Under the pieces are notes generated by a model. It worked only from the letters and a program-made list of their open reading frames with translations, had not been told where the DNA came from and ran no database searches. Shown one piece after another: positions 34,701-56,993 of a stretch of 61,072 nt of DNA. Position numbers and translations under genes: made by a program. The stretch lies in NCBI GenBank assembly GCA_002714185.1, contig PAWM01000010.1:11045-72116 (forward strand). Direction: 5' to 3'. Numbering within the stretch: the first letter of the stretch is position 1; each line of letters opens with the position of its first letter. The DNA comes from Flavobacteriales bacterium (GTDB taxonomy: Bacteria > Bacteroidota > Bacteroidia > Flavobacteriales > TMED113).

Positions 34701-37700
34701 TATTGGATGCACAGATTTTAGTGCTTGTAATTATAACTCTGTTGCTTTATTTGATGATGGCTCCTGTGATTATAGTTCTTGTGTAGGTTGTACAGATGAG
34801 CAGGCATGTAATTATAATGCTATTGCTATAATCTCTGATAATTCTTTATGTGATTATAGTTCTTGTGCTGGTTGTACAGATGAGCAGGCATGTAATTATG
34901 ATTTAGGAAGTACAATTGATAATGGTTTATGTGAGTATTTAACATGCACTGGTTGTACAGATGAGCAGGCATGTAATTATGATTTAGGAAGCACAATTGA
35001 TAATAATTCATGTGAGTATTTAACATGTGCTGGCTGTACAGATGAGCAGGCATGTAATTATTCCTCTGAAGCTACCATATCTGATGAATGTTTTTATACT
35101 GATGGTATTTGTGATACTTGTGAAAATAACATTATAATTGATAATGACCTTGATAACGATGGCATATGTAATGACGATGAAATATTAGGCTGTACTAATC
35201 CATTATTTGATGAATATAATCCTGCTGCAACCGAGAATGATGGTTCTTGTCTAACTCTCTCTTTAATTGGTTGTACAGACGAAGAGGCATGTAATTATAA
35301 TCCTGCTGCAACTGAGGAAGATGGACTATGTTTATATGCAGATGAACCATGTGAAGAATGTTTTGGTGCTCTTGTATGGTTTTTTGATTTAGATGGGGAT
35401 GGAATCTGTGATGATGAAGAAATATCTGGATGTCAAGATGTTTTGGCTTGTAATTATAATGAAGATGCATCTGATAATGATGATTCGTGTATATATGTTG
35501 AAAATAATTGTGATATATGTTCAGGAGAAATTGATGGTTCTGGCTATATAATTAATAATGATTCTGATAATGATACAATCTGTGATGATGATGAAATAAT
35601 TGGTTGTCAGGATCCTCTAGGTTGTAATTATAATCAATCAGCAACAGAACAAGGAGCATGCCTGTATCCGGATGATGAATGTGAAACTTGTGAAAATGGC
35701 TTAGTTGTAAATAATGATGTTGATAATGACGGTGTGTGCGATTGGAACGAGATAATTGGATGTACTAATCCACTATATGAGGAATACAATCCTTTAGCAA
35801 CTGAAGATGATGGCTCTTGTGTTACATTAACAGTTTATGGTTGCACCGACGAAGAAGCATGTAATTATAATGTTGATGCTACAGATAATGATAATTCATG
35901 TATTTATCCCGAAGATATATGTGAAACATGCGAAAATGGATTAGTAGTAAATAATGATGAAGATAATGATGGAATTTGTGATTGGGATGAAATTGAGTTA
36001 TGCGATCAGTTCGATTTTGTATCTTCTTCTGATGTGTCACAACCCTGTGAAGAAGGGGATTTTGGTTCTATTTCTATTACCATAGATTCTTTATTTATTA
36101 ATGATGACTTGATGTTTCAGTGGTCAGGCTTTGATTATTCAGGTAATAATATAGATTTAGGTGAACAAATTAATAATGAAGATTTGGTTAATTTAGATCC
36201 GGGAGTTTACACATATATTATTGATAATGGTCTATGTGTTCAACAAGGTTTTGAAACTGTTAATGTTGGTCAAAATTTAGAATTTGTTGTTCAAGAGCCA
36301 TATTTCTTTGATAATCCATTTAATCAATATTCGATTCAGTGTTTTGGTGATACAACAGCTTCGATGTATTTAGAATTTATTGGCGGTCAGCCACCGTATG
36401 ATCTTTATATTTCCGTAAATGGTGTTTTAGGCCCTGTTGATTTTGATATTACTGACGGTCAAATAATTAATGAACCTTTTCCTTATACATATGATGATTT
36501 TTATAATTTATGGAATGGTCCTAATAATGATATTGATGTTACATCTATTGGAGGAAGTTATCAATTTATTATTCAAGCTGCTGATGGTCAATGTAGTGTA
36601 GTTAGTGATGTTTTTAATTTTAATGAGCCAAATTTACTAACTCTAGATGTTATTAACATTGATGTTGATTGTTTTGATATTGATTCTGAGGGTAATCAAA
36701 TTCCAGATGGTCAGATTATTTTAAATATTTCAGGTGGAGCACCACCTTACAATATTCAATTTGATAATACTTCTGACGGTGTTTCAGATTATGAAACTAA
36801 TTGGGGGGGTAACGATTTACCAATTAATAATTTAGAATCTGGTACTTATAATTTTACTATTTCAGATTTAAATGGATGTGTTATACTTGATACAATTATT
36901 ATTCAGGATATAGATCCAATTTTTATTTCATCCTATGGAGATCAATATAATTGTTTTAATCCTGACTCTGATGGTAATCAAATTCCAAATGCTTTTTTAA
37001 ATTTTGAATTTAGTGGTGGTACACCTCCTTATAATTATCAATTTCTTCAAAATGATGAAAATGGAATTCCCGTTGCTTTTATTCAAGGTATAACTAACAA
37101 CTCTATAGAGTTTAATGATTTACAGGTAGGTGATTATTATATTGGTGTGACCGACTCAAATGGTTGTAGTGCATTAAATTTAACACTACCTGATGGAGGT
37201 ACAATATCTGAAAACTCTGATGGCTTATTTTACATTAATGGTCCAAATGATTCTCCTTTAACAATTGTTCAATTAGACGAGATTTCAATTAACTATGAAG
37301 TTACACAACCTTTAATATGTTATGGTGATTCTGTTGCATATATTGATGTTTTAATTAATCAACCAAATTATAGTGGTAGCTTTGATGTATATGTTGATAG
37401 TTCAGGTGTTTTAATTGATAGCATAATTGAATATACTCCTTCAGGAGCAGCATTAAACTATTGTTTTTTTGCGGATGGAGACAATCAATCTATTGCCTTA
37501 ACTGGTTTAGGTAATGTATTTGTTAATCCTTTTGAAACTGATTTGCAGGATGGGGATATTATTGGTTTATTTCAACAGGTTCCAGTTAGTCCAGCAGCTC
37601 CGTCTGGGTATCTTTGTGTTGGAGGAATAACTGATAATAATAATCTTCCTGATTGTGATTATTGTTTCGAAGATATTATTAATGATTATCCTACTATTTG

Positions 37701-40700
37701 TTCTGATAACACTTTGTGTCCAGAGGATAATCCGTTAACTCCTTATAATGAAGAATGTGATGCACCAGGATGTGGTATGATATCTAGTTTTTCTCAATCA
37801 ATTCCATATCAATCTTTCCCTGACGACCCAAACGATGTACAAGGTGATCTTAACTCTATTTGGACTGATGCATTTGGAAATTGGACAGGTGGATTTTCAT
37901 TTACCGCTTTTGCATCAGACCCTACAATTCCTGTGTGTAATCCAGTAAGTAATCCTTTAGCTTTATATGGATTTGATGCAACATCACCTAATAATGATAT
38001 TTATATTTTTGTTCAAAGAGATGGAATTACATATTCTACTGTTGTTGAATTTGCTCAATCTTCCGGATTCACACAGCAATATGCTGTTAATGGATTATCA
38101 GCGATTGAATCTATTTATTTAGATGAGCCTTTACTAGACAACGGTGATGGTAGTTTAGAGGTTTGTTTGATTAATCCAAGTGTGGATGATATTTATAATA
38201 TTACAGTTTTTAATTCATCTTATAATGATTCAATTTCCTGTGGTACTTCACTTGATTCAATTAATATTCTTGCTCCTGAAGAACCAATCAATGTGTTTTT
38301 AGCTGACTCAAGTAATTATAATGGTTTTGGAGTTTCATGTTTTGGTGAGACAGATGGATTTGTTGATGTTTTAATTTCTGGTGGATTTGGATCTTATACA
38401 CTTTCTTTGTATAATTCTTTTCCATTTGATAATCCAATAGCGAATGAAATAGCACCATCGTGTCCAATTTTTAATGAATGTAATAATGTTATTGAAAGTT
38501 TTGGTGGTGATTTAGCTCCAGGTACTTATTATTTAACTACTTCAGATAGTTTAGGGTGTTCTACTATTGTTAATGGTAATTTTTATGTAGATGAAAATGA
38601 AAATTTAATATATTATTATGAGTTTTCCATTACAGAACCAGAAATTTTCAATGTTTCTACTTCAATAAATAATGTTTCGTGTTATAATGGTTCAGATGGA
38701 TTTGTTGATTTAAATTTAACAGGTGGAGCGACTCCTTATATATACAATCCTTCGGATTTTATTGGGTTAGAGGCAGGTGTATATCAAGGTATTATTTATG
38801 ATGCTAACTATTGTTATGTTGAAGTTAATTTTGAAATTCAACAGCCAGAAGAACTAGTTCTCTCTATAGAATCAGTTAGTGATTATGATGGCTTTGGAGT
38901 TTCATGTTTTGGCGCAAATGATGGGTTTATTAATCTTGCGGTTAATGGAGGTACACCTTATTTAGGTGATGAAGGATATGAATTTATAGGATTAGACTCT
39001 TTAAATAATAATTTATCATCTGGCTCATATTCAGTTTATGTTATTGATTCACTTGGTTGTGAATCAAATACAATCGATATTAATTTAATACAGCCCGATC
39101 AAATTGAGCTGGTTTCAGGTTTGGATCCAACTACTTACATCAGTGATTATGATGGTTTTGGAGTTTCTTGTGCAGGAGAGGATGATGGGCAAATCGGTGT
39201 TGTAGAATCAATTGAAGTTGTTGGAGGAATTGGACCTTTTAATTACACTTGGTATCTAGGTAGCATTGCCCCTGATAATATTATGACAGTTAATTTATTT
39301 GGTAATATCATCGGTGATGACCCTTCTAGTTTAGGAGCTGATGGAGATGGACTTCCAGGAAACACAACATATTGGTTAGAAATTATAGATACAGGTAATT
39401 TAGAAACTGATTGTCCAATTACAATTGGTCCATTTGTCATTTCATTACCTCCTTCATTAGGTATTGAGCCCTCTATTACAATTCCAATGAATGTTGATTA
39501 CGATAATGATTCAGTTGAAGATAATTGGATTCAAGAAGTACCTTTAGTATTTGTTTTACAAGACGAAAATGAGTATGTAACTGGAGAATTGGAAATTTAT
39601 GGAGATTATGGTGTGTCATGTAATGGTGCAAATAATGGATTTATTAATATTGAAATTTCGGGAGGTTCTTCTAACAATTATACATATTACTGGGAGGCTT
39701 TTGATTTAAATGGTAATTCAATTGACTTAGGTAATCAATCAGATAATCAAGATATTTTTGAATTAAATGCTGGAACATATATTGTAAGTGTAATTGAAGA
39801 CAATTATTATCAAAATGATCCAATTGCTAATTCTGGCTGTTTTGTAACACAGACTTTTATTTTAAATGAACCTGCTGAGCCTCTTGATGTTGATGTTCAA
39901 ATTCTTTACTATGATAGTAATATTAATTCAGAGGACTATTCAAGTGACGTAAATAGTCCGTTAATAGATACTTATAATACCATTGACGATTATGATTATT
40001 TAACATTTGGTGTGTCATGTAATGGAGCAGCTGATGGTCAAATAAATATTAGTATTAGTGGTGGTGTAGAATTATATAATTATAAGTTATTTAATTCATC
40101 TAATCAAGTAGTTGATTCTTTAGAAATTTTTTCAGAAGAGATTAATTATGCTATATCAAATTTAGAAGCTGACACTTATACTTTAATTGTATATGATTAT
40201 AATTATTTATATGATGAATTAAATGCTGAAATTGCTACTGATTTACAATCATATATTAATGTATTTCCAAGTAATAATTATTTAAACTGTGTTTTTGAAA
40301 TAGAAATTGTAATTACTGAACCAGATTTATTATTAATTAATAATCCATTAATTAATAATGTTTCTTGTAATGGAAATGAGGATGGATCTATTAATGTTAG
40401 TGTTTCGGGCGGTATAGGTTCATCGGATGGTGATTATATTTATTCTTGGTCAGGTACAGATTTTAATGGTGATGAGATTATACTTGCTCAGGATGATGTA
40501 CAGGATTTAAGTGGAGTTCCAGCAGGAGAGTATCTGCTAACTGTATATGATAATAATTACTTTTGTGAAGTAACAGAATTATTTCTTGTTACAGAACCTG
40601 ACCCTATAGATTTTGAATTAACAGAGGTAGTATATTCGGACTACTGCGATGATGAATTAGGTTTTAATATTTCATGTTTTATAGACGAAAATAATGATGG

Positions 40701-42729
40701 TTTAAATGATATTACAGACGGTGAAATTGTAGTTAATAGTTTATTTCCATCAACTAATAATAGCTTTTCATATTACTGGAAATATAATAACGAGATTATA
40801 GATTTTGAAAATGGTACACCAGAAATTCTTTTTCCATCTATTTTAGAAGTTGGAAATGGTAATGAAGTGCCTAATTTAGCTGGACTTACTTCTGGATACT
40901 ATACTTTATATGTTCAAGATAATATTACTGGATGTGAAAATATTTTTGGACCTCATTTTATTTCCCAGCCCCAATTTTTAAACTCTAATATAGATAATGT
41001 TACTATTTCTGATTTAAATGGGGATTTAATTGATAATGATTATAATGGTTATGGTGTAAGTTGTATAGGATCATTTGATGGTTCAATTTCGGTTCAAATA
41101 GAAGGAGGGAGTGGTGTGTATAATGTTTTATATTTTGATGAAAATGGAATTGAAATAGCTAACATAAATCAAATTTTAGAACCTGTACCTTGTGAATGGT
41201 CATCTGATGTAGATAATGATGGTATACTTAATGAAAATGATTCTGATATTGATGGAGATGGTGTTTATTTAAATGGTGAGTGTATTGATAACTGTAATAA
41301 TTCTGCATTGTATAATTTAGAAGGAAATTGTATTGAAAATTGTGCTGATAATGATGATTTGCCTTACTATCCAGGTTTAATGTCTACTGTTGTAGAGCTG
41401 GATGAATTGCCTGCAGGAATTTATTCAATTGTTATTAATGATGGATTATGTCAGCCTATTGAAATTAGTTGTATTGAGTTAATAGCACCGCCTGAAATTT
41501 TACAATTTACTGAGGCTTTTGTTGATTCAGTTTCATGTAACGGTGATTCTGATGGTTCAATTCTCACTAGTTTTTATGGAGGTTTACCAAATAATTGGAA
41601 TTGGGGCTTGTATTCTACAGATGATTCATACTTAGATGGTGAGTTAATAGCAACTGGTGTAAACTTAATTGAGCCAGGAGAGATCTATATAGATAACTTA
41701 TCAGCAGGTTTTTATCGATTAGATATATTTGATATTAATGGATTTTCTGTCACTAATGATGATTTTTCAGATTTAGGTTTAGCGGCTGATTCTCAATATC
41801 ATTTTATGCCTGATGGATGTAGTGCTTCTTTAGATATTCAAATATTTGAACCTCCTGCAATTGATACATTAAATATGAGTATTGTGCACCCTTGTTACAA
41901 TTATCAAACTATTTGGTATTCTTCAGAGAATGGTGGTATTATATATGATACTCTTGTTAACCCTTCTAATGGATTGTTAAATTTAGATTTAATTGGTGAA
42001 AATCCACCATTTGATGTTTCTTTAGTTAATACAAGTTCTGATGATACAATGTCATTAGGTTTTTTTGATAATAATTTAGAAATTCAAAATCTAACTTCAG
42101 GTGTGTATAATTTAGAAATTACTGACACTAATCAGTGTGTTTCTAATTTTGATATTTTGTTAGGTTGGGACTATGTTAGTAATACAAGCGGAGTACCATC
42201 ACCTATGTCCATAAATATTTTAGATGTAAATATGCCAGATTGTGAATATTCAGTTGATGGTTCTATTTTATTTCCAGAAATTTCATCAGAATTATCTTTT
42301 ATTCATTATTGGGGGGTTGATTTAAATTTTGATGGTGAATATGATTATACAACTGAGGAACGAGATTTAACTGAGTTATCAATTGGTATATATTCATTAC
42401 ATATAATAGATGATATATATGGTTGTGAGATGATATATGATTATATTCTACAATCTGAATTTGATTGTGTTGAAGTGCCTACAGGTTTTTCTCCTAATGG
42501 TGATGGTATAAATGATTACTGGGTAATAGGTGCAATGGAAGAATATCAAGATGTGGAAGTTCAGGTCTATAATCGGTGGGGTGATCTCGTATTTTACTCT
42601 GATGATAATAAAGATTATTGGGATGGTACATATAAGGGTAAACATATGCCAACTGCTGATTATTTTTATATCATTAAAGATCGTGATGGTATAAGTCTAA
42701 GCCATGGTAGAGTAACATTGCGTCGTTAA
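31798..42729 (+). CDS. Giant T9SS type B surface protein with C-type lectin, Cys-rich and SprB repeats
   Basis: 3643 aa. Signal peptide 1-19. Residues 20-220 resemble a lamin-tail-like domain (SIELYVVEDIIDLSVYGF). Residues 230-315 hold four Cys-rich GCTxP..xNYN.NA.EDNGSC units. Residues about 332-460 form a C-type lectin-like domain with WIGLND, EPN at 422-424 and WND at 445-447. Residues 600-810 contain a GDQIGAFY module. Residues 915-1400 hold twelve more Cys-rich units mixed with DNDGICD blocks. From about 1400 to 3540 come many SprB repeats (CxGxxDGxIxVxxSGG..PY), some carrying inserted domains. The C-terminus is a type B sorting domain (FSPNGDGINDYW, VYNRWG). Likely a cell-surface adhesin or gliding-type filament; the target ligand is unknown. 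Confidence 0.9.
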   Translation: MNRIYFFIFFILVSYITPAQQSSLILTGISRPNNSFPDNGNNNARSIELYVVEDIIDLSVYGFATSNENAAGGQSNNPIQLTEDADFWPAGSFIYIARDGDLFEDLHGFPPDYESGALNFYGGNESGPGPICVIELLYSPGSWNVNNLQTIDFWANNSLDYGLFGGWSKRQNCFGPNAGPINWQYMNPVFLSDNGDLTNLYENFDIAEWSYGISDPNPIEFGTYEPCFGCTNPLADNYDINSNIENGSCVISDCTDPNAENYNSNATEDNGSCVYAGCVDPFFLEYYLQGYEADFDNGSCSNIINLGCFNSSACNYNENTNLPCTQIGEEISGFTFLGIFNDHGYYLSNEVASWDYANNYTNVLGGYLTSVTSEEEQNFIYNNVNSIIPNNYWIGLNDINNEGVFSWVNDDDFIFENWNTGEPNSGFDENYVEVFSDNSISPGFWNDAPGSVERYYVLELEDQDCCLFADGICQTCLDGVVLENDSDGDGICDWDDLGCQVTVQPIITNLCEGEWQIYLDFQYDTSTSIPGLDDITAFFISSGTLYEPEQSFVTTNSEYDLVYNINTPGDYIISFQSSSECNFGEFPISILESVDLSLTYSLDAIPCQGGFLTGFLDGPSGIYSVYVDGIYETDLSIGLENVVFDSWNGNVGSDCNGNVLFGNATENQTIALGGFSGLQIGDQIGAFYIHPTCGLTSGGDIEYDGSNTLTISVWANDPNTLPVEGFNPGDEIIWLVNSDGIIYNADINWNTSGNGLISGEYFAPAGLGATTSFSIGGDYEESFSVELSTGAHSVTVFDGSCLILEENDIFIEDSQSVNDAVLNIVDATCEDVNDGSITVQGLSENSTYELTLVLIGPNTTFTANGNSFENLPSGTYFINILDLTCDESFTDFDIIVGASGLIDDCGVCDSDPTNDCVLGCSDELACNFDPNATDNDSCDYSCLGCDGIANSGLEFDICGICGGDNTSCIGCTDFSACNYNSVALFDDGSCDYSSCVGCTDEQACNYNAIAIISDNSLCDYSSCAGCTDEQACNYDLGSTIDNGLCEYLTCTGCTDEQACNYDLGSTIDNNSCEYLTCAGCTDEQACNYSSEATISDECFYTDGICDTCENNIIIDNDLDNDGICNDDEILGCTNPLFDEYNPAATENDGSCLTLSLIGCTDEEACNYNPAATEEDGLCLYADEPCEECFGALVWFFDLDGDGICDDEEISGCQDVLACNYNEDASDNDDSCIYVENNCDICSGEIDGSGYIINNDSDNDTICDDDEIIGCQDPLGCNYNQSATEQGACLYPDDECETCENGLVVNNDVDNDGVCDWNEIIGCTNPLYEEYNPLATEDDGSCVTLTVYGCTDEEACNYNVDATDNDNSCIYPEDICETCENGLVVNNDEDNDGICDWDEIELCDQFDFVSSSDVSQPCEEGDFGSISITIDSLFINDDLMFQWSGFDYSGNNIDLGEQINNEDLVNLDPGVYTYIIDNGLCVQQGFETVNVGQNLEFVVQEPYFFDNPFNQYSIQCFGDTTASMYLEFIGGQPPYDLYISVNGVLGPVDFDITDGQIINEPFPYTYDDFYNLWNGPNNDIDVTSIGGSYQFIIQAADGQCSVVSDVFNFNEPNLLTLDVINIDVDCFDIDSEGNQIPDGQIILNISGGAPPYNIQFDNTSDGVSDYETNWGGNDLPINNLESGTYNFTISDLNGCVILDTIIIQDIDPIFISSYGDQYNCFNPDSDGNQIPNAFLNFEFSGGTPPYNYQFLQNDENGIPVAFIQGITNNSIEFNDLQVGDYYIGVTDSNGCSALNLTLPDGGTISENSDGLFYINGPNDSPLTIVQLDEISINYEVTQPLICYGDSVAYIDVLINQPNYSGSFDVYVDSSGVLIDSIIEYTPSGAALNYCFFADGDNQSIALTGLGNVFVNPFETDLQDGDIIGLFQQVPVSPAAPSGYLCVGGITDNNNLPDCDYCFEDIINDYPTICSDNTLCPEDNPLTPYNEECDAPGCGMISSFSQSIPYQSFPDDPNDVQGDLNSIWTDAFGNWTGGFSFTAFASDPTIPVCNPVSNPLALYGFDATSPNNDIYIFVQRDGITYSTVVEFAQSSGFTQQYAVNGLSAIESIYLDEPLLDNGDGSLEVCLINPSVDDIYNITVFNSSYNDSISCGTSLDSINILAPEEPINVFLADSSNYNGFGVSCFGETDGFVDVLISGGFGSYTLSLYNSFPFDNPIANEIAPSCPIFNECNNVIESFGGDLAPGTYYLTTSDSLGCSTIVNGNFYVDENENLIYYYEFSITEPEIFNVSTSINNVSCYNGSDGFVDLNLTGGATPYIYNPSDFIGLEAGVYQGIIYDANYCYVEVNFEIQQPEELVLSIESVSDYDGFGVSCFGANDGFINLAVNGGTPYLGDEGYEFIGLDSLNNNLSSGSYSVYVIDSLGCESNTIDINLIQPDQIELVSGLDPTTYISDYDGFGVSCAGEDDGQIGVVESIEVVGGIGPFNYTWYLGSIAPDNIMTVNLFGNIIGDDPSSLGADGDGLPGNTTYWLEIIDTGNLETDCPITIGPFVISLPPSLGIEPSITIPMNVDYDNDSVEDNWIQEVPLVFVLQDENEYVTGELEIYGDYGVSCNGANNGFINIEISGGSSNNYTYYWEAFDLNGNSIDLGNQSDNQDIFELNAGTYIVSVIEDNYYQNDPIANSGCFVTQTFILNEPAEPLDVDVQILYYDSNINSEDYSSDVNSPLIDTYNTIDDYDYLTFGVSCNGAADGQINISISGGVELYNYKLFNSSNQVVDSLEIFSEEINYAISNLEADTYTLIVYDYNYLYDELNAEIATDLQSYINVFPSNNYLNCVFEIEIVITEPDLLLINNPLINNVSCNGNEDGSINVSVSGGIGSSDGDYIYSWSGTDFNGDEIILAQDDVQDLSGVPAGEYLLTVYDNNYFCEVTELFLVTEPDPIDFELTEVVYSDYCDDELGFNISCFIDENNDGLNDITDGEIVVNSLFPSTNNSFSYYWKYNNEIIDFENGTPEILFPSILEVGNGNEVPNLAGLTSGYYTLYVQDNITGCENIFGPHFISQPQFLNSNIDNVTISDLNGDLIDNDYNGYGVSCIGSFDGSISVQIEGGSGVYNVLYFDENGIEIANINQILEPVPCEWSSDVDNDGILNENDSDIDGDGVYLNGECIDNCNNSALYNLEGNCIENCADNDDLPYYPGLMSTVVELDELPAGIYSIVINDGLCQPIEISCIELIAPPEILQFTEAFVDSVSCNGDSDGSILTSFYGGLPNNWNWGLYSTDDSYLDGELIATGVNLIEPGEIYIDNLSAGFYRLDIFDINGFSVTNDDFSDLGLAADSQYHFMPDGCSASLDIQIFEPPAIDTLNMSIVHPCYNYQTIWYSSENGGIIYDTLVNPSNGLLNLDLIGENPPFDVSLVNTSSDDTMSLGFFDNNLEIQNLTSGVYNLEITDTNQCVSNFDILLGWDYVSNTSGVPSPMSINILDVNMPDCEYSVDGSILFPEISSELSFIHYWGVDLNFDGEYDYTTEERDLTELSIGIYSLHIIDDIYGCEMIYDYILQSEFDCVEVPTGFSPNGDGINDYWVIGAMEEYQDVEVQVYNRWGDLVFYSDDNKDYWDGTYKGKHMPTADYFYIIKDRDGISLSHGRVTLRR
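32793..33182 (+). other. C-type lectin-like domain inside the 3643-aa protein
   Basis: Encodes residues about 332-460. The order is DHGYYLS...SWDYA...GGYLTSVTSEEEQNF...YWIGLND....G.FSW....F.F.NW..GEPN..FDENYVEV......WND, the full C-type lectin layout. EPN (422-424) and WND (445-447) are the calcium and mannose-type sugar-binding motifs of the family. The classic disulfide Cys are absent, as in many bacterial members. Confidence 0.85.
34786..35061. repeat. 81-84 bp tandem repeat in the Cys-rich region
   Basis: A 30-base core, GGTTGTACAGATGAGCAGGC followed by ATGTAATTAT, begins at 34786, 34870, 34951 and 35032 (last copy with one change). The second and third copies are nearly identical over the whole 81 bases, indicating recent duplication. 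Each unit encodes GCTDEQACNY plus a variable tail. Confidence 0.95.
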
Positions 42730-46984: not shown

Positions 46985-49900
46985 ATGAAAAAAATATTGT
47001 TTTGTATATGTGTGTTTATTAATTTTTATATTCAAGGACAATCAGTTTTAGATTGGCAAGTTCCTGTAACTGATGCAAATGCTACAATAAGTATTGGGGA
47101 AGGAAATGGTGTAACTGGTGCATCTGATCCAACTCTCAATTCAGCACTGCTACCTGATGGGTCTTTAATTGGTGTTTTCTTTTTAAATGATAATAATGAG
47201 TATACTTGTGGTGGAGCAACTAAATGGAATGCATCATTAAATTTAGCAGTTGCAGCATGGGGCTCTGAAAGTGGTTTAGATAATGGGTTTGCTGCCGGTG
47301 AGTCATATAATTGGTTTGTGAGAGTATGTGACGGTGATTGTTGGCCTATAGATCTTGATGGTGATAATGTTATTGATTCAAATGAAGTATTAGATGGAAT
47401 AGATTATATTTCTAATGATGCTATAATGTTAAACATAAGTCCTTTTGATGTTACATACGTATCTAATGGATTATCAGCTTTATCTTCTGCTGATTTTGTT
47501 GAATATGAAGAAAATGTAGAAGAAGAATTATCATGTGAGTGTGCTTATGGGGTAGCTGTTCCTAACGGAGGTATGTGTATGATACTCAATGCTTGTGATG
47601 ACCCTACAGCATCCAATTATTGTCCTGGACTAGGACCTGATTTAACACAATATTTTCAAAATGCATGTGAATATGATCAAGCTTTAGAAGGTTGTACATG
47701 TGAGGAAGCTTATAATTATGATTCTAATGCTTCAGTTGACGATGGTACTTGTTTAGTGTTGTCTGGAGGCTGTAATGATTCTTCTGCAGCAAATTATTCA
47801 GGAGATGAATGCTCTACTGCTAATTTTATTGCACCAAATTGTGTGTACTCTGGTTGTTTATGTTCCGAATCATATAATTATAATCCATCTGCAAACTTAG
47901 ATGATGGTTCATGTGTTATTTTAAGTGGTGGCTGTAGTGATGCTACTGCTAATAACTACTCAGGAGATGAATGTTCTACTGCTATTTTTGCTTCAGAAGA
48001 TTGTCAATATAGTCTTATTGATGTTGATTTAACTTGGGAGTTTTCTATAACCGATGCTAATATGACAGTTCAAATAGGTTCTGATGTAGTTAATTTTAAT
48101 AATGAACCAATTCCATTAGGTTCTTTAATCGGTGCTTTTTTCACGAATGACAATGGTGAATTACAAAATGCTGGATATTTAGAGTGGACAGGAGATCAAC
48201 TAGCATTACCTGTATGGGCATCAGAGTCTGGCTTAGATAATGGATTTGCTTCAGGTGAGGAAATTATATGGGGTTTATCAATCGGTCCAGATGATTTTCT
48301 TGCTACTTCGTCTTCTATGAATTCTAATCCACCATTTTCTCAAACTTTTATTTCAAATGGTTTTGGACAATTATTGTCAGCTGAATTTGAAGGTGAATTA
48401 ACAGCCGTTTTAGGATGTACTGACCCGTCGGCCTACAATTATAGTCCTGATGCTAATTTTGATAATGGTTCTTGTTATAATTTAGATTGGGAGGTGACGC
48501 CCACTGATTGTAATATGACAATTTTAATTCAACAAGTAGATATTGATTTACTTAGCATTTCTTTAAATCAAGATGTTATTCCCACTGGCTCAGTAATTGG
48601 GGTGTTTTATGAAAATGAAAATGGAGAACTTATATGTGGTGGATCTACTATATGGACAGGAGTAGCAACCAGTCTTGCTGTTTGGGGAGCAGAAGCTGGA
48701 TTAAATAATGGTTTTCAAAGTGGAGAGGAATTTGCAACTTGGGCTTTATTGATTGGAGATCAAACGATTCAAATTGATGATAATGGGGCTACAATGAATG
48801 AAATTGGGTGGTCTAGTACTTATGTGTGTAATGGATTTGGAAATCTAACATCTGTTAATTTTGAAGGAGAATACACCATAAGTTTTGGTTGTACAGATTC
48901 TACTGCTTGTAATTATGATGAAACCGCGATTGTTGATGATACATCTTGTACTTATGCACAAATATTGTATCAGGATAGTGATGGTGATGGCCTTGGAAAT
49001 CCAGATTCGAGTACAGAATCTTGTGATGAAATAAGTGGATTTGTAGACAATAATGAAGATCCTTGTCCTAATAATATAGATAATCCTAATAATGCGGTTA
49101 TATGGTATCTAGATGAAGATGGTGATGGTCTAGGAACAGATTTATATATTGTATATGGATGTAATCCTCCGGGGGATGATTTTTCTGATAATGCTGATGA
49201 CCCTTGTCCTTATGATAGTGAAAATACTGATGAAGATAATGATGGAATTTGTGATTATGAAGATGATTGTATTGGTGAATATGATGCTCTTGGTATTTGT
49301 AACGGAGAATGTGTTAATGATATAGATAATGATGGAGTTTGTGATATTGATGAAATTTATGGATGTCAAGATTCATCTGCATTAAATTTTGATAGTTCTG
49401 CAACTGAAAATGATGATTCTTGTTGTTATATAGCAGGATGTATAGATGCGTCAGCATTTAATTATAATTCCAATGCATGTTTTGATAACGGTTCATGTAT
49501 AGATGTTTTAGAAGGTTGTACAGATTCATCCTCATTTAATTATGATGTGAATGCAAATACAGATGATGGTTCATGTGTTCCATTTATTTTTGGTTGTACT
49601 GATATATTCGCTTGTAATTATGATTTAACAGTTAATACAGATAATGGTACTTGTACTTATCCTTTAGAGGATTATTTAGATTGTAATAATAATTGTTTAA
49701 CTGATTCTGATAGTGATGGAGTATGTGATGAGATAGAAACTTTTGGTTGTACTGAATTATCAGCATTTAATTATGATTCTTCAGCAACTGAAGATGATGG
49801 TTCATGTATAGAAGTGGTCTATGGTTGTACAGACTCAATGGCTTTAAATTATGATGAAATAGCTAATACTGATAATAATAGTTGTTGTTTCATTGAAGGT

Positions 49901-52900
49901 TGTACAGATGAATTAGCATATAATTATAATGCTAATGCTTGTTTTGATAATAGCTCCTGTATTGAAGTTATAGAGGGCTGTTTAGACCCATCTGCTTTAA
50001 ATTATGATTTAAATGCTAATACTTCTAATGATAGTTGTTGTTATATTGGAGGATGTACAGATTCATCTGCATATAATTATAATTCAAATGCATGTTTTGA
50101 TAACGGTTCCTGTGTTGAAGTTATTGAGGGATGTACAGATTCATCATCATTTAATTATAATGTGAATGCAAATACAGACGATGGTTCTTGTATACCATTT
50201 ATTTTTGGCTGTACTGATTCAATAGCTTGTAATTTTAATCCTAGTGCAAATACAGATAATGGATGTACTTATCCTGAGGATTTCTATGACTGTAATGAAG
50301 TTTGTTTAAATGATTTAGATTCTGATGGTATTTGTGATGAATTAGAAGTGGGTGGATGTACAAATCCAGCAGCTTTCAACTATAATCCGCAAGCAACAGA
50401 TTCCGACTTTTGTATTTTTCCAGGATGTTTAGATTCTGGTGCTTGTAATTTTGATTCCGAAGGCATATATAATGAGGTTGTAGAATGTGAGTATGAATCA
50501 TGTTTAGGATGTACAGATTCGTCTGCAGAAAATTATGATTCAGAAGCTATAATAGATAATGGTTCATGTATTATAATAGGATGTACAGATCAAGTAGCTT
50601 GTAATTATAATCCTAATGCAAATTCTAACAGTGGATGTTCATATCCAGTAATTTATTTTGATTGTGATAATAATTGTATCAATGATATTGATAGTGATGA
50701 AGTATGTGATGAATTGGAAATTTTTGGATGTACTGATTCATCAGCATTCAATTTTGATTTAGAAGCTACAGAGGATGATGGAACTTGTATAGAAATAATT
50801 TTAGGATGTTTAGATAATGCTTCATGTAACTATATTATTAATGCGAATACAGATGATGGTTCATGTATATATCCATCTCAGGGTTTTGATTGTGATGGTA
50901 ATGCATTATTATTAGATTCTCCATGGGGAAATAATATTGGTTGTGACCCATTTAATACTCATGTTGTTGGATTTGCAGTAGAGGGATTTAATATAGGAGA
51001 TTTTATAGGTTTATTTTATACGAGTTCAGATGGTGATTTAGTGTTTTCACAAGGAATTGAATATAGTGGTAATAATTTTTCTTTTACTATTTGTGGTGAT
51101 GATCAAACAACTTCCGAAAAAGATGGTTTTGATATAGGCGAGTCTTTCATCTGGCAACTTTGGCCAGTAGGTGAAGATTGTGCTTATTCTATCAATGTTG
51201 ATTATTCTGAATCTCAGTCTTCAGCTGGAGAATATCAAGTAAATGGTATTTCTCAAGTTATTTCTTTTTCAGGAAGTCCTCTCGATGCATCTGCTATTGT
51301 TACAGATGCTCTGTGTTACGGGGATTTGGGGTCAGCAGAATTGATAGTTACAGGCGGTGTTGCTCCATATCAAATTGAAGATTTATCATCTTTACCTGTA
51401 GGTTTAAATACTACAGTAGTTCTTGATGCAGTAGGATGTCAATTTGAATTAGAATTTATTGTTCAAGAACCGGACTTGCTAACCTCTTCAGTTGAGATAC
51501 TAAATCCTCTATGTAATGGTGGTTTAGCCACAGTGTATTATAGTGTTTTAGGAGGTACTCCACCATATCAATACACAGATAATGGTATAGATTTTTATGA
51601 CTTTATTCCAAATCAAGATAATGAGCTATATTTATCTACTGATAATAATTTACTCTTAACTGCTATTGATGCAAATGGTTGTGTAAGTGAAGTGGAAGTT
51701 GTTTATGAAGTACCTGCAGAATTAACTGTAGAAGTAATAGTAAGTGAACCATTATGTTATGGAGATTTTGTATCAGCAGAAATAATAGTTGAAGGTGGTA
51801 CAGCTCCATATGAAATATCTGCATATGAAGTATCATCTATTCCTTTATTCGTTTATGATTTTAATTACCTGTTATCAGGTACATATACCGCAGAAGTAAC
51901 TGATGCTAATGGATGCATAGCAAGTCTTGACTTTATAGTTACAGAGCCAGAAGAATTGTCATTATCATTTAATTCTACAGCAGGTGAGTATTCTAATTGT
52001 TCTTCTGGAACAGCTGCTGTGTTTGTAGAGGGCGGTAATGGAGATTATGAATATTTGTGGTCAAATGGTGAAACTACTGCAGAATTATCAGGACTTTGTG
52101 CCGGAGATTACTCTGTTACAGTTACTGATTCTAATGGCTGTGTTGTTAATGGACTAGTAACTGTAGAATATTTGCTACCAGAAGGGTGGGAGGTTAATGA
52201 AACAAGTTTGGTTCATCATATAATTATTGGAGGCGGTTTTTTAGATGATGCTATTATGTTATTAGATGAAATTCAACTAGTACCAGGTGATTATGTGGGT
52301 GTGTTTTTTAATAATGATGATGGAACTCAATCATGTGGTGGTTATGTGATGATAAATGAATATAATATGTTCATGAATCAAGATGGTTGTTATACTTGTC
52401 CTTTATATGCTTATGGAAGTGATAATGATTATGAAGGTTTTGAGCAAGGAGAAAAATTTAATTGGAGAGTTTGGAGTAATCAAACAGAAACAGAAGTAGA
52501 GGGTTTTGCTGTTTATGATAATAGTTGCGATGATGAAAGATATTTTAATTCGAACGGTACTAATCAAGATGCTGGTACAAGTTGTGTTTTAGGTACTGTG
52601 TTTGCATCTCATCAAGTGATTCCACTTAACGAAAATCTATATTCTGACTGGGATATGATATCAACATATATGTCCTCTGAGGAAACTGTTCAATCCATAT
52701 TTACTCCTGTAGCAGAAGAGTTAGTTATTATAAAAGATGCTACTGAGTTAGTTTATTGGCCAGATTTAAATATACAAACACTAACAACTTTAAATGTAAA
52801 TGATGCTTATGCAGTTAAAACATGGGCACCAAATGAAATAACTGTTTATGGAGATTTTATTCAACCAGAAGAAATTTCATTTTCTCTTTCTGGTTGGAAT

Positions 52901-53785
52901 TATATGTCATACCCACGATACTACCAAGAAGATGTTGATGTTGTATTATCTGATTTAGCATCAAATATAAAATTATTAAAAGATGATGAAGGGAATCTGT
53001 ATTGGCCTGAATTAGGTATTAATACAATTGGTCAGATGGAGGCAGGTGAAGGTTATATTCTAAAAGTCTTGGATGATCAATTATTTTCTTTCCCATCTAA
53101 TAGTGATGGCGAGATAGGTGGTAGTACAGTTGCCGAGGGAAGACTTGGTTTAACCCAAACCTCTTACTTTACTGACATTGAGAAAACTAACTCTAACATG
53201 GTTATTGGGTTACCTGTAGAATCTTGGGATAATTTTTATCCTGAAAATGGAGATGAATTAGTTGCATTCGATTCTGAAAATAACATCGTAGGTGTTACTG
53301 TATTGAATGATAATAATAATTTTATGTTTATTTGGGGTGATGATAATGAAACATCGCATAAGGATGGAATGATAAGTGGAGAAGAATTTTTTATTGAATT
53401 ATGGGATCAGTCAACAAATACTATTTATACTGTTGAAATAGATTGGGAAGAAGGAGTTGATTTATTTAGTAATAATGGAATTAATATAGCTTCTTCAATT
53501 TTCGTAGATAAGAAATTTGAAAATAGTTTAGATTATATTTCTTGTTATCCAAATCCAACTTCAGGTAATTTATCAATTGAATTCTATTTGAATAATGATG
53601 ATTATGTAAATTTATCAATCTTCAATTCAATTGGTGAGCAAGTTTATAAGTATAATAAGAATTTATTTACTAAGGGTATTAATAAATTACCAATTTCTTT
53701 AGGACATTTAAGTCAGGGGTTATACTATATTGAGATACAAAATTCTGAAGAAAATAAGAATATTATAATTGATTTAACAAAATAA
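46985..53785 (+). CDS. T9SS type A Cys-rich repeat adhesin with six GDxIGxF modules
   Basis: 2266 aa from ATG 46985, where a signal peptide starts (MKKILFCICVFINFYIQGQS); an in-frame start 25 codons upstream would overlap the previous gene and add a charged stretch, so it is rejected. The layout is three N-terminal modules of the PxGSLIGxFF....WASESGLDNGF.xGE type, with Cys-rich units between them. About 23 GCTD.SA.NYN.NA..DDGSC units in all extend to residue ~1300, interleaved with DSDSDGxCDE blocks. A fourth module, three or four SprB-type repeats and a fifth module follow. Next come a duplicated WDMISTYM/WNYMSYP domain (about 1886-2042), a sixth module and a type A sorting domain (CYPNPTSGNLSIEF). 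Likely a secreted adhesin; 4 bases separate it from the next gene. Confidence 0.9.
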   Translation: MKKILFCICVFINFYIQGQSVLDWQVPVTDANATISIGEGNGVTGASDPTLNSALLPDGSLIGVFFLNDNNEYTCGGATKWNASLNLAVAAWGSESGLDNGFAAGESYNWFVRVCDGDCWPIDLDGDNVIDSNEVLDGIDYISNDAIMLNISPFDVTYVSNGLSALSSADFVEYEENVEEELSCECAYGVAVPNGGMCMILNACDDPTASNYCPGLGPDLTQYFQNACEYDQALEGCTCEEAYNYDSNASVDDGTCLVLSGGCNDSSAANYSGDECSTANFIAPNCVYSGCLCSESYNYNPSANLDDGSCVILSGGCSDATANNYSGDECSTAIFASEDCQYSLIDVDLTWEFSITDANMTVQIGSDVVNFNNEPIPLGSLIGAFFTNDNGELQNAGYLEWTGDQLALPVWASESGLDNGFASGEEIIWGLSIGPDDFLATSSSMNSNPPFSQTFISNGFGQLLSAEFEGELTAVLGCTDPSAYNYSPDANFDNGSCYNLDWEVTPTDCNMTILIQQVDIDLLSISLNQDVIPTGSVIGVFYENENGELICGGSTIWTGVATSLAVWGAEAGLNNGFQSGEEFATWALLIGDQTIQIDDNGATMNEIGWSSTYVCNGFGNLTSVNFEGEYTISFGCTDSTACNYDETAIVDDTSCTYAQILYQDSDGDGLGNPDSSTESCDEISGFVDNNEDPCPNNIDNPNNAVIWYLDEDGDGLGTDLYIVYGCNPPGDDFSDNADDPCPYDSENTDEDNDGICDYEDDCIGEYDALGICNGECVNDIDNDGVCDIDEIYGCQDSSALNFDSSATENDDSCCYIAGCIDASAFNYNSNACFDNGSCIDVLEGCTDSSSFNYDVNANTDDGSCVPFIFGCTDIFACNYDLTVNTDNGTCTYPLEDYLDCNNNCLTDSDSDGVCDEIETFGCTELSAFNYDSSATEDDGSCIEVVYGCTDSMALNYDEIANTDNNSCCFIEGCTDELAYNYNANACFDNSSCIEVIEGCLDPSALNYDLNANTSNDSCCYIGGCTDSSAYNYNSNACFDNGSCVEVIEGCTDSSSFNYNVNANTDDGSCIPFIFGCTDSIACNFNPSANTDNGCTYPEDFYDCNEVCLNDLDSDGICDELEVGGCTNPAAFNYNPQATDSDFCIFPGCLDSGACNFDSEGIYNEVVECEYESCLGCTDSSAENYDSEAIIDNGSCIIIGCTDQVACNYNPNANSNSGCSYPVIYFDCDNNCINDIDSDEVCDELEIFGCTDSSAFNFDLEATEDDGTCIEIILGCLDNASCNYIINANTDDGSCIYPSQGFDCDGNALLLDSPWGNNIGCDPFNTHVVGFAVEGFNIGDFIGLFYTSSDGDLVFSQGIEYSGNNFSFTICGDDQTTSEKDGFDIGESFIWQLWPVGEDCAYSINVDYSESQSSAGEYQVNGISQVISFSGSPLDASAIVTDALCYGDLGSAELIVTGGVAPYQIEDLSSLPVGLNTTVVLDAVGCQFELEFIVQEPDLLTSSVEILNPLCNGGLATVYYSVLGGTPPYQYTDNGIDFYDFIPNQDNELYLSTDNNLLLTAIDANGCVSEVEVVYEVPAELTVEVIVSEPLCYGDFVSAEIIVEGGTAPYEISAYEVSSIPLFVYDFNYLLSGTYTAEVTDANGCIASLDFIVTEPEELSLSFNSTAGEYSNCSSGTAAVFVEGGNGDYEYLWSNGETTAELSGLCAGDYSVTVTDSNGCVVNGLVTVEYLLPEGWEVNETSLVHHIIIGGGFLDDAIMLLDEIQLVPGDYVGVFFNNDDGTQSCGGYVMINEYNMFMNQDGCYTCPLYAYGSDNDYEGFEQGEKFNWRVWSNQTETEVEGFAVYDNSCDDERYFNSNGTNQDAGTSCVLGTVFASHQVIPLNENLYSDWDMISTYMSSEETVQSIFTPVAEELVIIKDATELVYWPDLNIQTLTTLNVNDAYAVKTWAPNEITVYGDFIQPEEISFSLSGWNYMSYPRYYQEDVDVVLSDLASNIKLLKDDEGNLYWPELGINTIGQMEAGEGYILKVLDDQLFSFPSNSDGEIGGSTVAEGRLGLTQTSYFTDIEKTNSNMVIGLPVESWDNFYPENGDELVAFDSENNIVGVTVLNDNNNFMFIWGDDNETSHKDGMISGEEFFIELWDQSTNTIYTVEIDWEEGVDLFSNNGINIASSIFVDKKFENSLDYISCYPNPTSGNLSIEFYLNNDDYVNLSIFNSIGEQVYKYNKNLFTKGINKLPISLGHLSQGLYYIEIQNSEENKNIIIDLTK
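49436..50277. repeat. Duplicated ~230-bp block, copies offset by 615 bases
   Basis: Positions about 49436-49665 recur at about 50051-50277, without insertions or deletions over at least the first 165 bases. Both copies encode the order SNACFDN(G)SC, then a TDSSSFNYxVNANTDDGSC unit and PFIFGCTD. The bases between the copies are made of related but more diverged units. Confidence 0.85.
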
Positions 53786-53789
53786 ATAT

Positions 53790-56700
53790 ATGTTAAGGAA
53801 TCTATTTTTTATTAGTTTTATTTTTTTTAGTCATTTAGTAATATCTCAAGAGTGGGAATATTCTATTACTGATGTCAATATGACTATTCAAGTCTCAGCT
53901 GATGTTGTTACTTTTGATGATATAGCACCACCTATTGGTTCTTTATTAGGTGCTTTTTATATTAATGATTTAGGAGAATTTTCTTGTGGTGGTTATCAAG
54001 AGTGGACAGGCGATCAAATTGCAGTTGCACTGTGGGGTACAGAGTCGGGTATGGATAACGGTTTTCAAGTTGGTGAAGATATTACTTGGTATTTACAAGT
54101 TGATGGAGAAAGTTATCAAGCCTCTTTTTCATTAATGAACGAAGGTGGACCATTGGGTATGTCTTCTACTTTTGCTCCAAATGGCTTTGGTCAAATTTTA
54201 GATGTAGATTTTTTTAGTTCAGGTTGTTCAGATCTATTAGCTTGTAATTATTGCGGTTCTTGTTCAGTATTTGATGATTCTTTATGTCAGTATCCTCCCA
54301 TATACTACAATTGTGATGGTGAATGTATAAATGATTCAGATAGTGATTTCATTTGTGATGAGCTTGAAATATTTGGTTGTACTGATTCTTTAGCAGCAAA
54401 CTTTGATTCAAATGCAACTGAAGATAATGGCTCTTGTAATTATATAGTTTTTGGATGTATAAATTCTTTAGCAAGTAATTTTGATATTACTGCTACTGAT
54501 GATGATGGTTCCTGTTTGTTGTGTGGAGACATTGATGCACAAAATTATTATTCAGGTTCAGATGGTACAATATGTACTGAGGATATTCTCAATAACTATA
54601 CATTAGAAAATGAAACAGATGGATTACCGGATTGTTGTTTTTATGCAAATCCTGGTTGTACTGATGATGGATCATGTTTCGATATCGATGGCGATGGAGA
54701 TTTAGATGAATGTGATGATAGTTTTTTATATATAGATGAACAAACTGGTTTGTCAGTATATTATCAAAGCCCTTTTCCAGGGGTTCCAGCATCAAATTAT
54801 AATCCTAGTGCAAATATTTTAGTAGGTGTTAATTATTGTTATTATTTTCCTGCTTGTCAAGATGCAGATGCTTTGAATTATGGATTTAATTGTAACGGGG
54901 ATGATATTTTATCACTTGCAAGTGAAAATGGCTTTTCTATTGATTTTAATGAGCAGCCTGAGAATGATTCTTTTGCAGTAACATATAATGATGTGTCTTT
55001 TGATTTTGAGGGATCTAATAGTTGTTGCTTATATTTTGGTTGTGATGATGAATCAGCTGACAATTATCAAGATTTAGATGGAGTTTTCTATCAAGATGAT
55101 ACAGCTAATGATAATGAGCAGAATTTAAATGTGCTATTTAATTTTGATGAATCATATATTATTTTAGATCCTGATTTACCATCGCCTTCAAATATAATAA
55201 GTTTCTTTTCACAAGAAGATATTGACGGAGATGGTATTTCAAATTCTTTAGATTCAGATCCTGATGGTGATAATTTCTCTACAATTTTTAATTATGGAAA
55301 TGTAGAAGATTTAGATTCAAATAGTCCTTGTGTATATATGGGTTGTATGGATGTTAATGCTATTAATTATAATGAAAATGCTAATGTTGATAACTTCAGC
55401 TGTATCTATTATGCTTGTGACGATAATCAAGCACTTAATTTTAATCCTGAAGGAGAAGAATGTTTTGACTATTTTAATAATCAAACATTTTTACCTGAGC
55501 CTGACGGTTTAGATGACTGTTGTGATTATTTAGGTTGCCTTGATCCATATTCAGTGAATTATAATTCAAGTGCTACGATTGAAGAATTAGTATTTGTATT
55601 TCAAGACGGCATTTATGTTCCTATTCCTATTATAGAAGATGGAGATACAATAGGTTATGAAAATACATGTTATGATTATGTATTTGGTTGTATGGATCCT
55701 GTTGCAGAAAATTATAATGATTATGATTATGATGGTGAATCAAACGAATATGTAAATGAAAATCAAATTATTTATCAATTGCAGAATATTAATATGAATA
55801 TTGAATCTGATTTGTTTGCCATTAATAATTTTGATATTATCCAAGAGGTTCCGTTCTTAGGAAATAATACTAATGTAAATACTCAAGTTCCATTAGATCA
55901 AAATGGTTTACCTATTAATAATCCAGATCCAATTAACTCAGTTAATCCATGTGAATATATTTATGGTTGTATGAATCCTTGTTTTATAGAGTATTATGAC
56001 ATTGTAGATTATAATGGCGAGGATAATTTTGACTTTGATTTTATAAATAATTTATTGGAAAGTTATAATTGTGATTTTGAATATGAAGGTGGTTGTACTG
56101 AATTACTACCACCTCAAAACATACCTACATTTGATGATGGATCTTGTGAAAACCTTCTTGTGTATGGCTGTATGGATCCTACAGCTGAAAATTTTAATCC
56201 AAATGCAAATATTAACGATTGTAGTTCTTGTGTGCCAGCGATTGAAATTATCAATTTAAATATTGAAAATCCTATTTGCTGGGATGATATAAATGGTGAA
56301 TTTGATTTTCAAGTAATTGGCGGTATTCCGCCTTACACATTTTTCATATATGATAATTTAAGTAATATAGTTATTGATGAAGAAGTTACTTTTCCATTTG
56401 TCACTAATGATTTTGAACTCCAATATGGAAATTATCTTTTAAATGTAATTGATTCTGAAGGTTATTCTAGCTCTATATCATTTACTATTACACAGGCTGA
56501 TGATTTATTAATTGAAATGTGGGAATCAGGTGGTTGGTTAGTAACATTAGAGGGTTATGATAATTACCAATGGACTTTAAATGGAGAGATTTTAACAGGT
56601 GATGGTTTTGAAGGCTCTCAAATATTCCCCACAGTTTCGGGTTTATATGGTGTAACTGTTAATTTTATTTATGGTAATGATTTGTGTTTTTCAAACACTT

Positions 56701-56993
56701 TTTATTATGATTATGAATTATTTCAAAATTCTATTAACGATGAGTTAGGTTTTACTATAACATGTAATCCAAATCCATTTTTGAATTCCGCAATTATTCA
56801 AATAGAAAGAAATAATATTGAGTTACTTAAATTTGCTTTATATGACGGCCTTGGTAAAAAGATTTGGAAAGATGATATGGTAATAAATAATGAAAAATAT
56901 TTTATTATTGATAATTTAGAACCTGGTATATATTATCTTTATGCAGCTAGTAGTAGTGATGTTCAGATTATTCAACTTATGGTATTAGACTAA
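53790..56993 (+). CDS. T9SS type A Cys-rich surface protein
   Basis: 1067 aa. Signal peptide 1-19 (LVISQ). Residues 20-145 are one PIGSLLGAFY...WTGDQ..ALWGTESGMDNGFQVGE module, closely related to the first modules of the upstream protein. Residues 150-810 contain Cys-rich units like GCTDSLAANFDSNATEDNGSC, several with long low-complexity Asp/Asn-rich insertions and several CC pairs; one DIDGDGISNSLDSDPDGD block is calcium-site-like. Residues 815-890 form one SprB-like repeat (GGIPPYTFFIYD). The C-terminus (about 985-1067) is a type A sorting domain with CNPNPFLNSAIIQI and PGIYYLYA. It lies 4 bases after one surface-protein gene and 7 before another, probably one operon. Likely surface attachment; ligand unknown. 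Confidence 0.88.
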   Translation: MLRNLFFISFIFFSHLVISQEWEYSITDVNMTIQVSADVVTFDDIAPPIGSLLGAFYINDLGEFSCGGYQEWTGDQIAVALWGTESGMDNGFQVGEDITWYLQVDGESYQASFSLMNEGGPLGMSSTFAPNGFGQILDVDFFSSGCSDLLACNYCGSCSVFDDSLCQYPPIYYNCDGECINDSDSDFICDELEIFGCTDSLAANFDSNATEDNGSCNYIVFGCINSLASNFDITATDDDGSCLLCGDIDAQNYYSGSDGTICTEDILNNYTLENETDGLPDCCFYANPGCTDDGSCFDIDGDGDLDECDDSFLYIDEQTGLSVYYQSPFPGVPASNYNPSANILVGVNYCYYFPACQDADALNYGFNCNGDDILSLASENGFSIDFNEQPENDSFAVTYNDVSFDFEGSNSCCLYFGCDDESADNYQDLDGVFYQDDTANDNEQNLNVLFNFDESYIILDPDLPSPSNIISFFSQEDIDGDGISNSLDSDPDGDNFSTIFNYGNVEDLDSNSPCVYMGCMDVNAINYNENANVDNFSCIYYACDDNQALNFNPEGEECFDYFNNQTFLPEPDGLDDCCDYLGCLDPYSVNYNSSATIEELVFVFQDGIYVPIPIIEDGDTIGYENTCYDYVFGCMDPVAENYNDYDYDGESNEYVNENQIIYQLQNINMNIESDLFAINNFDIIQEVPFLGNNTNVNTQVPLDQNGLPINNPDPINSVNPCEYIYGCMNPCFIEYYDIVDYNGEDNFDFDFINNLLESYNCDFEYEGGCTELLPPQNIPTFDDGSCENLLVYGCMDPTAENFNPNANINDCSSCVPAIEIINLNIENPICWDDINGEFDFQVIGGIPPYTFFIYDNLSNIVIDEEVTFPFVTNDFELQYGNYLLNVIDSEGYSSSISFTITQADDLLIEMWESGGWLVTLEGYDNYQWTLNGEILTGDGFEGSQIFPTVSGLYGVTVNFIYGNDLCFSNTFYYDYELFQNSINDELGFTITCNPNPFLNSAIIQIERNNIELLKFALYDGLGKKIWKDDMVINNEKYFIIDNLEPGIYYLYAASSSDVQIIQLMVLD

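Follow-up and report, generated by a model that had tools for sequence, protein, structure and literature searches.

A diverged ~120-residue GDxIGxF domain, probably adhesive, recurs in large surface proteins of an oceanic Flavobacteriales genome

Three neighbouring proteins (P0001, P0002, and P0003) encoded in a 61,072-nucleotide stretch of DNA from a Flavobacteriales bacterium (GCA_002714185.1, contig PAWM01000010.1, positions 11,045 to 72,116 of the forward strand; hereafter the window) contain a recurrent and strongly diverged unit built around a GDxIGxF core. A first-pass annotation, made from the sequence, had marked nine such units, and the locus raises the question of whether they are copies of one domain and what that domain contributes to the proteins that carry it. 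The nine units share common ancestry. We read them as diverged copies of a single extracellular β-sandwich domain of ~120 amino acids (aa) whose most likely role is that of a head and bead for adhesion or ligand contact, a reading to which, taken as a whole, we give about an even chance. It is all but certain that the GDxIGxF domain is a real domain family found in exported surface proteins.

To avoid circular scoring of the window copies, we built a profile on 137 copies, all of them from other genomes. This external profile recovered eight window copies with independent E-values (i-E) of 1.4e-38 to 6.3e-13 (123.7 to 40.9 bits), whereas the reversed and shuffled window proteins scored at most 5.7 bits. 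All copies lie on the (+) strand. P0002 contains six: copy a (47045..47500, aa 46-197, i-E 2.8e-30), copy b (48026..48391, aa 373-494, i-E 1.4e-38), copy c (48479..48865, aa 524-652, i-E 2.9e-36), copy d (50876..51277, aa 1323-1456, i-E 8.9e-23), copy e (52178..52588, aa 1757-1893, i-E 1.8e-17), and copy f (53159..53509, aa 2084-2200, i-E 1.6e-19). The single copy of P0003, copy g (53844..54215, aa 19-142, i-E 1.7e-37), is the first domain behind the putative signal peptide, as copy a is in P0002. P0001 carries two copies, of which copy h (33727..34125, aa 644-776) is the weakest match of the eight (i-E 6.3e-13, 40.9 bits) and copy i (37465..38124, aa ~1890-2109) is interrupted after its GDIIGLF strand, where roughly 90-100 aa are inserted. 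When joined, the halves of copy i scored 18.5 bits against a maximum of 8.2 bits among 1431 control joins of P0001, and its C-terminal half alone reached 1.7e-10 with a profile from the same genome.

Building a profile had been proposed in the first-pass annotation, and the version made only from external copies retrieves the window copies; with the external profile accounting for eight and the joined halves for one, all nine lie where they had been marked, exactly or to within a few dozen bases. A motif scan found the GDxIGxF-type core at every one of these sites, and a search of the window returned no copies beyond the nine. The suggested unit length of ~110-130 aa is too narrow, as the domain spans 117 aa in copy f, 152 aa in the insertion-enlarged copy a, and ~220 aa in the split copy i. 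The host proteins have a high content of D, N, G, and S, and such composition could give rise to recurrence by chance or low complexity; the behaviour of the external profile on the shuffled and reversed sequences refutes this explanation, to which we attach practically no weight.

The core itself is one part of a broader family pattern. An alignment of 51 diverse members (A3) yields T-(G/D)-x-N-x-x-I-x-I ... G-(D/S)-x-I-G-V-F ... C-x-G-x-x-x-W in the first part of the domain and W-G-(D/S)-(D/E)-x-x-T-x-x-(D/N)-G-F-x-x-G-E ... (F/Y)-x-x-N-G in the second, with the Gly of DGF as the sole invariant column. Copy b, chosen for modelling with AlphaFold2, was predicted as an eight-stranded β-sandwich with a predicted local distance difference test score (pLDDT) of 96.5 and a predicted template modelling score of 0.89. 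Together with the external profile, this model bears out the earlier view of the units as one homologous β-rich module. Cys at model position 11 and Cys at position 110 tend to be present as a pair: 31 copies (copy c among them) have both, 4 have one, and 106 have neither (Fisher p 3.6e-27, uncorrected for relatedness), and the paired state has two origins on the copy tree. From this pairing, a disulfide is expected to link the beginnings of strands 1 and 8, which would place the conserved T9-(G/D)10-N12 beside N111-G112. These conserved polar residues, T9-(G/D)10-N12 with N111, and the acidic loop (D/S)66-(D/E)67-x-x-T70...(D/N)72-G-F-x-x-G-E78 are candidate contact or Ca2+-stabilised regions.

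Conservation of the acidic loop (positions 66-78), T9, N12, and N111 might instead indicate a metal-dependent or enzymatic domain, and the insertion between the last strands of copy a includes, by direct reading of the sequence, an EF-hand-like loop, DLDGDNVIDSNE, at 47351..47386 (+); the orthologue in SP256 has DIDGDGLLDTGE in its place. The acidic positions vary, however (D, S, T, or N at 66; D, E, or N at 67), which fits poorly with a catalytic site, and neither Foldseek nor VIA-align found a fold relative of known activity. We consider a metal-dependent or enzymatic function very unlikely.

In the type IX secretion system (T9SS), exported proteins are sorted and anchored by their C-terminal tail. 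Many GDxIGxF host proteins have such tails, and the genome under study encodes the T9SS machinery (GldK, 499.6 bits; SprA, 2623.8 bits). P0001 (31798-42729 (+), 3643 aa) ends in a type B sorting tail (CHU_C; 42472..42681 (+); PF13585 4.4e-21, TIGR04131 3.4e-21), P0002 (46910-53785 (+), 2291 aa, with MKKILF at aa 26 as the likely true start) in a type A tail (Por_Secre_tail; 53546..53770 (+); PF18962 1.1e-9, TIGR04183 5.6e-7, above the cut-off), and P0003 (53790-56993 (+), 1067 aa) likewise in a type A tail (56769..56963 (+); TIGR04183 2.2e-6, above the cut-off). At the other end, an N-terminal Met followed by a hydrophobic stretch was recognised in the host proteins by eye and by a simple count. 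Of 56 proteins that are intact at the 5′ end, a count that includes some near-identical orthologues, 40 have their first module at most 40 aa from the likely start, directly behind the putative signal peptide. Minimal proteins of 262-282 aa, such as L057, L063, and L069, contain only a putative signal peptide, a single module, and a T9SS tail, which suggests that the module can be a cargo by itself.

These arrangements suggest how an adhesive head and bead might work. The host proteins would be exported through Sec at the inner membrane and through the T9SS at the outer membrane, to be held on the cell surface via their C-terminal tails. With that tail as the anchor, an N-terminal module would be the distal tip, and further modules would form beads along a long fibre. 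Tip module and repeats together could provide multivalent contact with particles, glycans, or neighbouring cells, for avidity.

We infer the adhesive or ligand-contact role, and a pure spacer is a serious rival. As a passive structural bead, the module would add only length and stiffness to the fibre, leaving binding to other domains such as the C-type lectin domain or the SprB repeats. The conserved residues lie chiefly in the core and turns, and serial copies do occur, with four in a protein of 1559 aa and about nine each in ~3490-aa Calditrichota proteins. A passive bead does not readily account for the one-module proteins, which have only a signal peptide and a T9SS tail besides, or for the frequent N-terminal placement. 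We judge a passive bead somewhat improbable, if quite possible. Placement at the mature N-terminus and the minimal proteins lean toward a contact role, in a matter that sequence alone cannot decide, and we favour ligand binding over a passive spacer only to a moderate degree.

Several observations weigh against an adhesive head and bead formed by one shared fold. Conservation is highest in Gly, aromatic, and aliphatic core residues, as a passive spacer would also show, and P0001, like some other proteins, lacks a module close to its N-terminus. A prediction of P0002 1750-2291, which covers two of the most diverged copies, e and f, and used a shallow ten-row alignment, reached a pLDDT of only 48.6; given this low-confidence model, the shared fold of these diverged copies rests on sequence homology, and the strand order in the model, similar to that of copy b, was not used as evidence. 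When the copy b model was compared with known structures, the best Foldseek match in the PDB had an E-value of 0.014 (chance level), and the best VIA-align match had a Z of 7.1, a value that the tool rates as typical in the absence of a true match, so no function can be borrowed from the fold.

A role in export or assembly was also considered, in which the module would contact periplasmic chaperones or T9SS components, or would process or dock the protein at the surface. The module stands beside the signal peptide in most proteins, and copy f adjoins the T9SS tail of P0002 in a conserved arrangement. Between copies e and f lies a two-lobed W-rich region (52622..53149 (+)), supported by a phmmer search of P0002 1750-2291 against other loci, with the motifs WDMIS...YWPDLNI and WNYMSYP...YWPELGI; no Pfam model matches it, several Bacteroidota families share it, and the order module, W-rich region, module, T9SS tail is found in other Bacteroidota families as well. 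Against such a role, about 90% of the sampled Bacteroidota genomes have no copy, which indicates that T9SS export does not need the module, and modules are also found in Calditrichota proteins and in lipoprotein-like versions (L072 and L048). We regard an export or assembly function as unlikely.

The first-pass annotation had suggested that the unit might define this set of adhesins, and its distribution contradicts this. The assembly (1.52 Mb, 89% complete) has 30 module matches with an E-value of 0.001 or better in 11 proteins, that is, in eight proteins beyond P0001-P0003, one of which is 241 aa long; together, the module proteins occupy 50.6 kb, or 3.3% of the assembly. All 12 genomes searched in the same family have matches (11-35 each), and most other families of the order are without them, two having 2-19. 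In a phylum-wide draw of 394 Bacteroidota genomes, the own-genome profile found matches in 25 and a broader profile in 39 (~10%), both counts including the genome under study. The named relatives are metagenome-assembled and single-cell genomes of oceanic Flavobacteriales (NAT88, SP256, SP39, NAT99, NAT501, TMED113, and AG-343-M05). Beyond the phylum, a Calditrichota bin encodes two proteins of ~3490 aa (L043:1-10473 and L046:487-10965) with about nine modules each; in the former, the modules alternate with HYDIN/ASH-type Ig-like repeats.

To trace the history of the copies, we used a tree of 157 copies and 129 columns, which leaves many of the deep forks unresolved. Copies a, b, d, e, and f cluster with copies from the same position in other genomes, and copy c clusters with its counterpart in a paralogous protein of the same genome and with copies from other genomes. 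Because the grouping follows position across genomes, the window copies are old and have been kept individually. A recent tandem duplication was rejected for the window copies, as the neighbours of the window copies in the tree are the copies of other genomes and not the adjacent ones. The Calditrichota copies form their own starred group and expanded independently. The genes for P0001, the SprB-repeat protein (42823-46944, between P0001 and P0002), P0002, and P0003 keep this order in part in NAT88, SP256, SP39, and NAT99, within the reach of the contigs.

A broader proposal, which is tentative and rather doubtful, is that this unnamed adhesive β-sandwich domain, lacking close solved fold relatives, sits as the distal head on many surface proteins exported by the T9SS, and that its expansion to 11-35 copies per genome of ~1-1.5 Mb constitutes a main particle- or cell-attachment system of this small-genome family of oceanic Flavobacteriales. 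With a GDxIGxF profile, which can be made straight away, parts of large surface proteins labelled "hypothetical" would gain an annotation in about one-tenth of the sampled Bacteroidota genomes and in Calditrichota. The family offers a testable case of small oceanic genomes that give several per cent of their DNA to giant surface proteins built from modules, and the share of DNA spent in this way bears on the attachment of such cells to particles or other cells.

The domains that co-occur with the module include lectin, SprB, cohesin, dockerin, cadherin-like, carboxypeptidase-regulatory, and HYDIN/ASH domains. The lectin, SprB, cohesin, dockerin, and cadherin-like partners speak for the adhesive or contact reading. 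The C-type lectin domain of P0001 lies at 32851..33168 (+) (PF00059, 5.5e-10). Cys-rich repeats of the form GCTDxxAxNYxxxAxxDDGSC, which have no Pfam match, are located between the modules; a simple pattern counts 15 in P0002, 6 in P0001, and 2 in P0003. One Bacteroidota protein (L053:166-2334) has a cellulosome-like make-up, with two cohesins and a dockerin beside two GDxIGxF modules and a T9SS tail. Elsewhere in the genome under study, a giant T9SS type B protein of 2622 aa (C19; L011:3622-11487) carries three GDxIGxF modules and SprB repeats behind a cytochrome-c-like domain (PSCyt1/Cytochrom_C) at the mature N-terminus. A heme motif, CAGCH or CIDCH, is present at aa 36 in this protein and its orthologue (L045:1177-9594), and it is unusual for a surface fibre to carry a heme protein.

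Comparisons with sequence libraries bore out the absence of a Pfam family that covers the copies. None of 19 modules from the genome under study matched Pfam-A, and none of the 51 diverse modules reached a curated cut-off in Pfam-A or NCBIfam, where the best of a few stray weak matches had an E-value of 0.011. The module regions of P0001-P0003 likewise had no match in either library, these proteins matching only SprB, C-type lectin, and T9SS tail models. Sequence searches of the PDB with two profiles gave chance matches only. A phage origin is without support, PHROGs and a viral fold library having returned nothing above chance. A literature search found no description of the domain, which is weak evidence given the limited library, and the missing close fold match is a weak sign of novelty, the fold comparison having covered the PDB.

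Among known systems, the TANFOR domain (TIGR02542) occupies an N-terminal position in large Bacteroidetes proteins and occurs in T9SS neighbourhoods (PMC7073777), in both of which respects the GDxIGxF domain resembles it. The two are not identical, as TIGR02542 was unmatched in P0001-P0003 at an E-value of 1 and in the 51 modules at 0.1, and no toxin domain was found in the present case. Structurally, transthyretin-like (prealbumin) domains, the FimD C-terminal domain, and the lipoxygenase N-terminal (PLAT-type) domain are loosely similar β-sandwiches (VIA-align Z 4.0-7.1, root-mean-square deviation 2.9-4.4 Å), but these similarities are at chance level by the tool's own yardstick and have no counterpart in sequence. 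SprB-type gliding adhesins are alike in consisting of repeated modules in very large T9SS-exported surface proteins, and SprB repeats occur in the same window proteins. The SprB repeat is, however, a short repeat of 37 positions with its own model (PF13573), which matched none of the 19 and 51 modules, whereas the GDxIGxF domain is a complete β-sandwich of ~120 aa. Cohesin (PF00963), Big_9, and Cadherin_4 are extracellular Ig-like or cadherin-like β-sandwich modules found in the same polypeptides, and differ in having separate profiles, none of them matched by GDxIGxF modules. The GDxIGxF domain is not a new kind of system; by the libraries searched, it is a new family of a familiar kind, the extracellular β-sandwich modules, and is probably an adhesive head or bead and nothing exotic.

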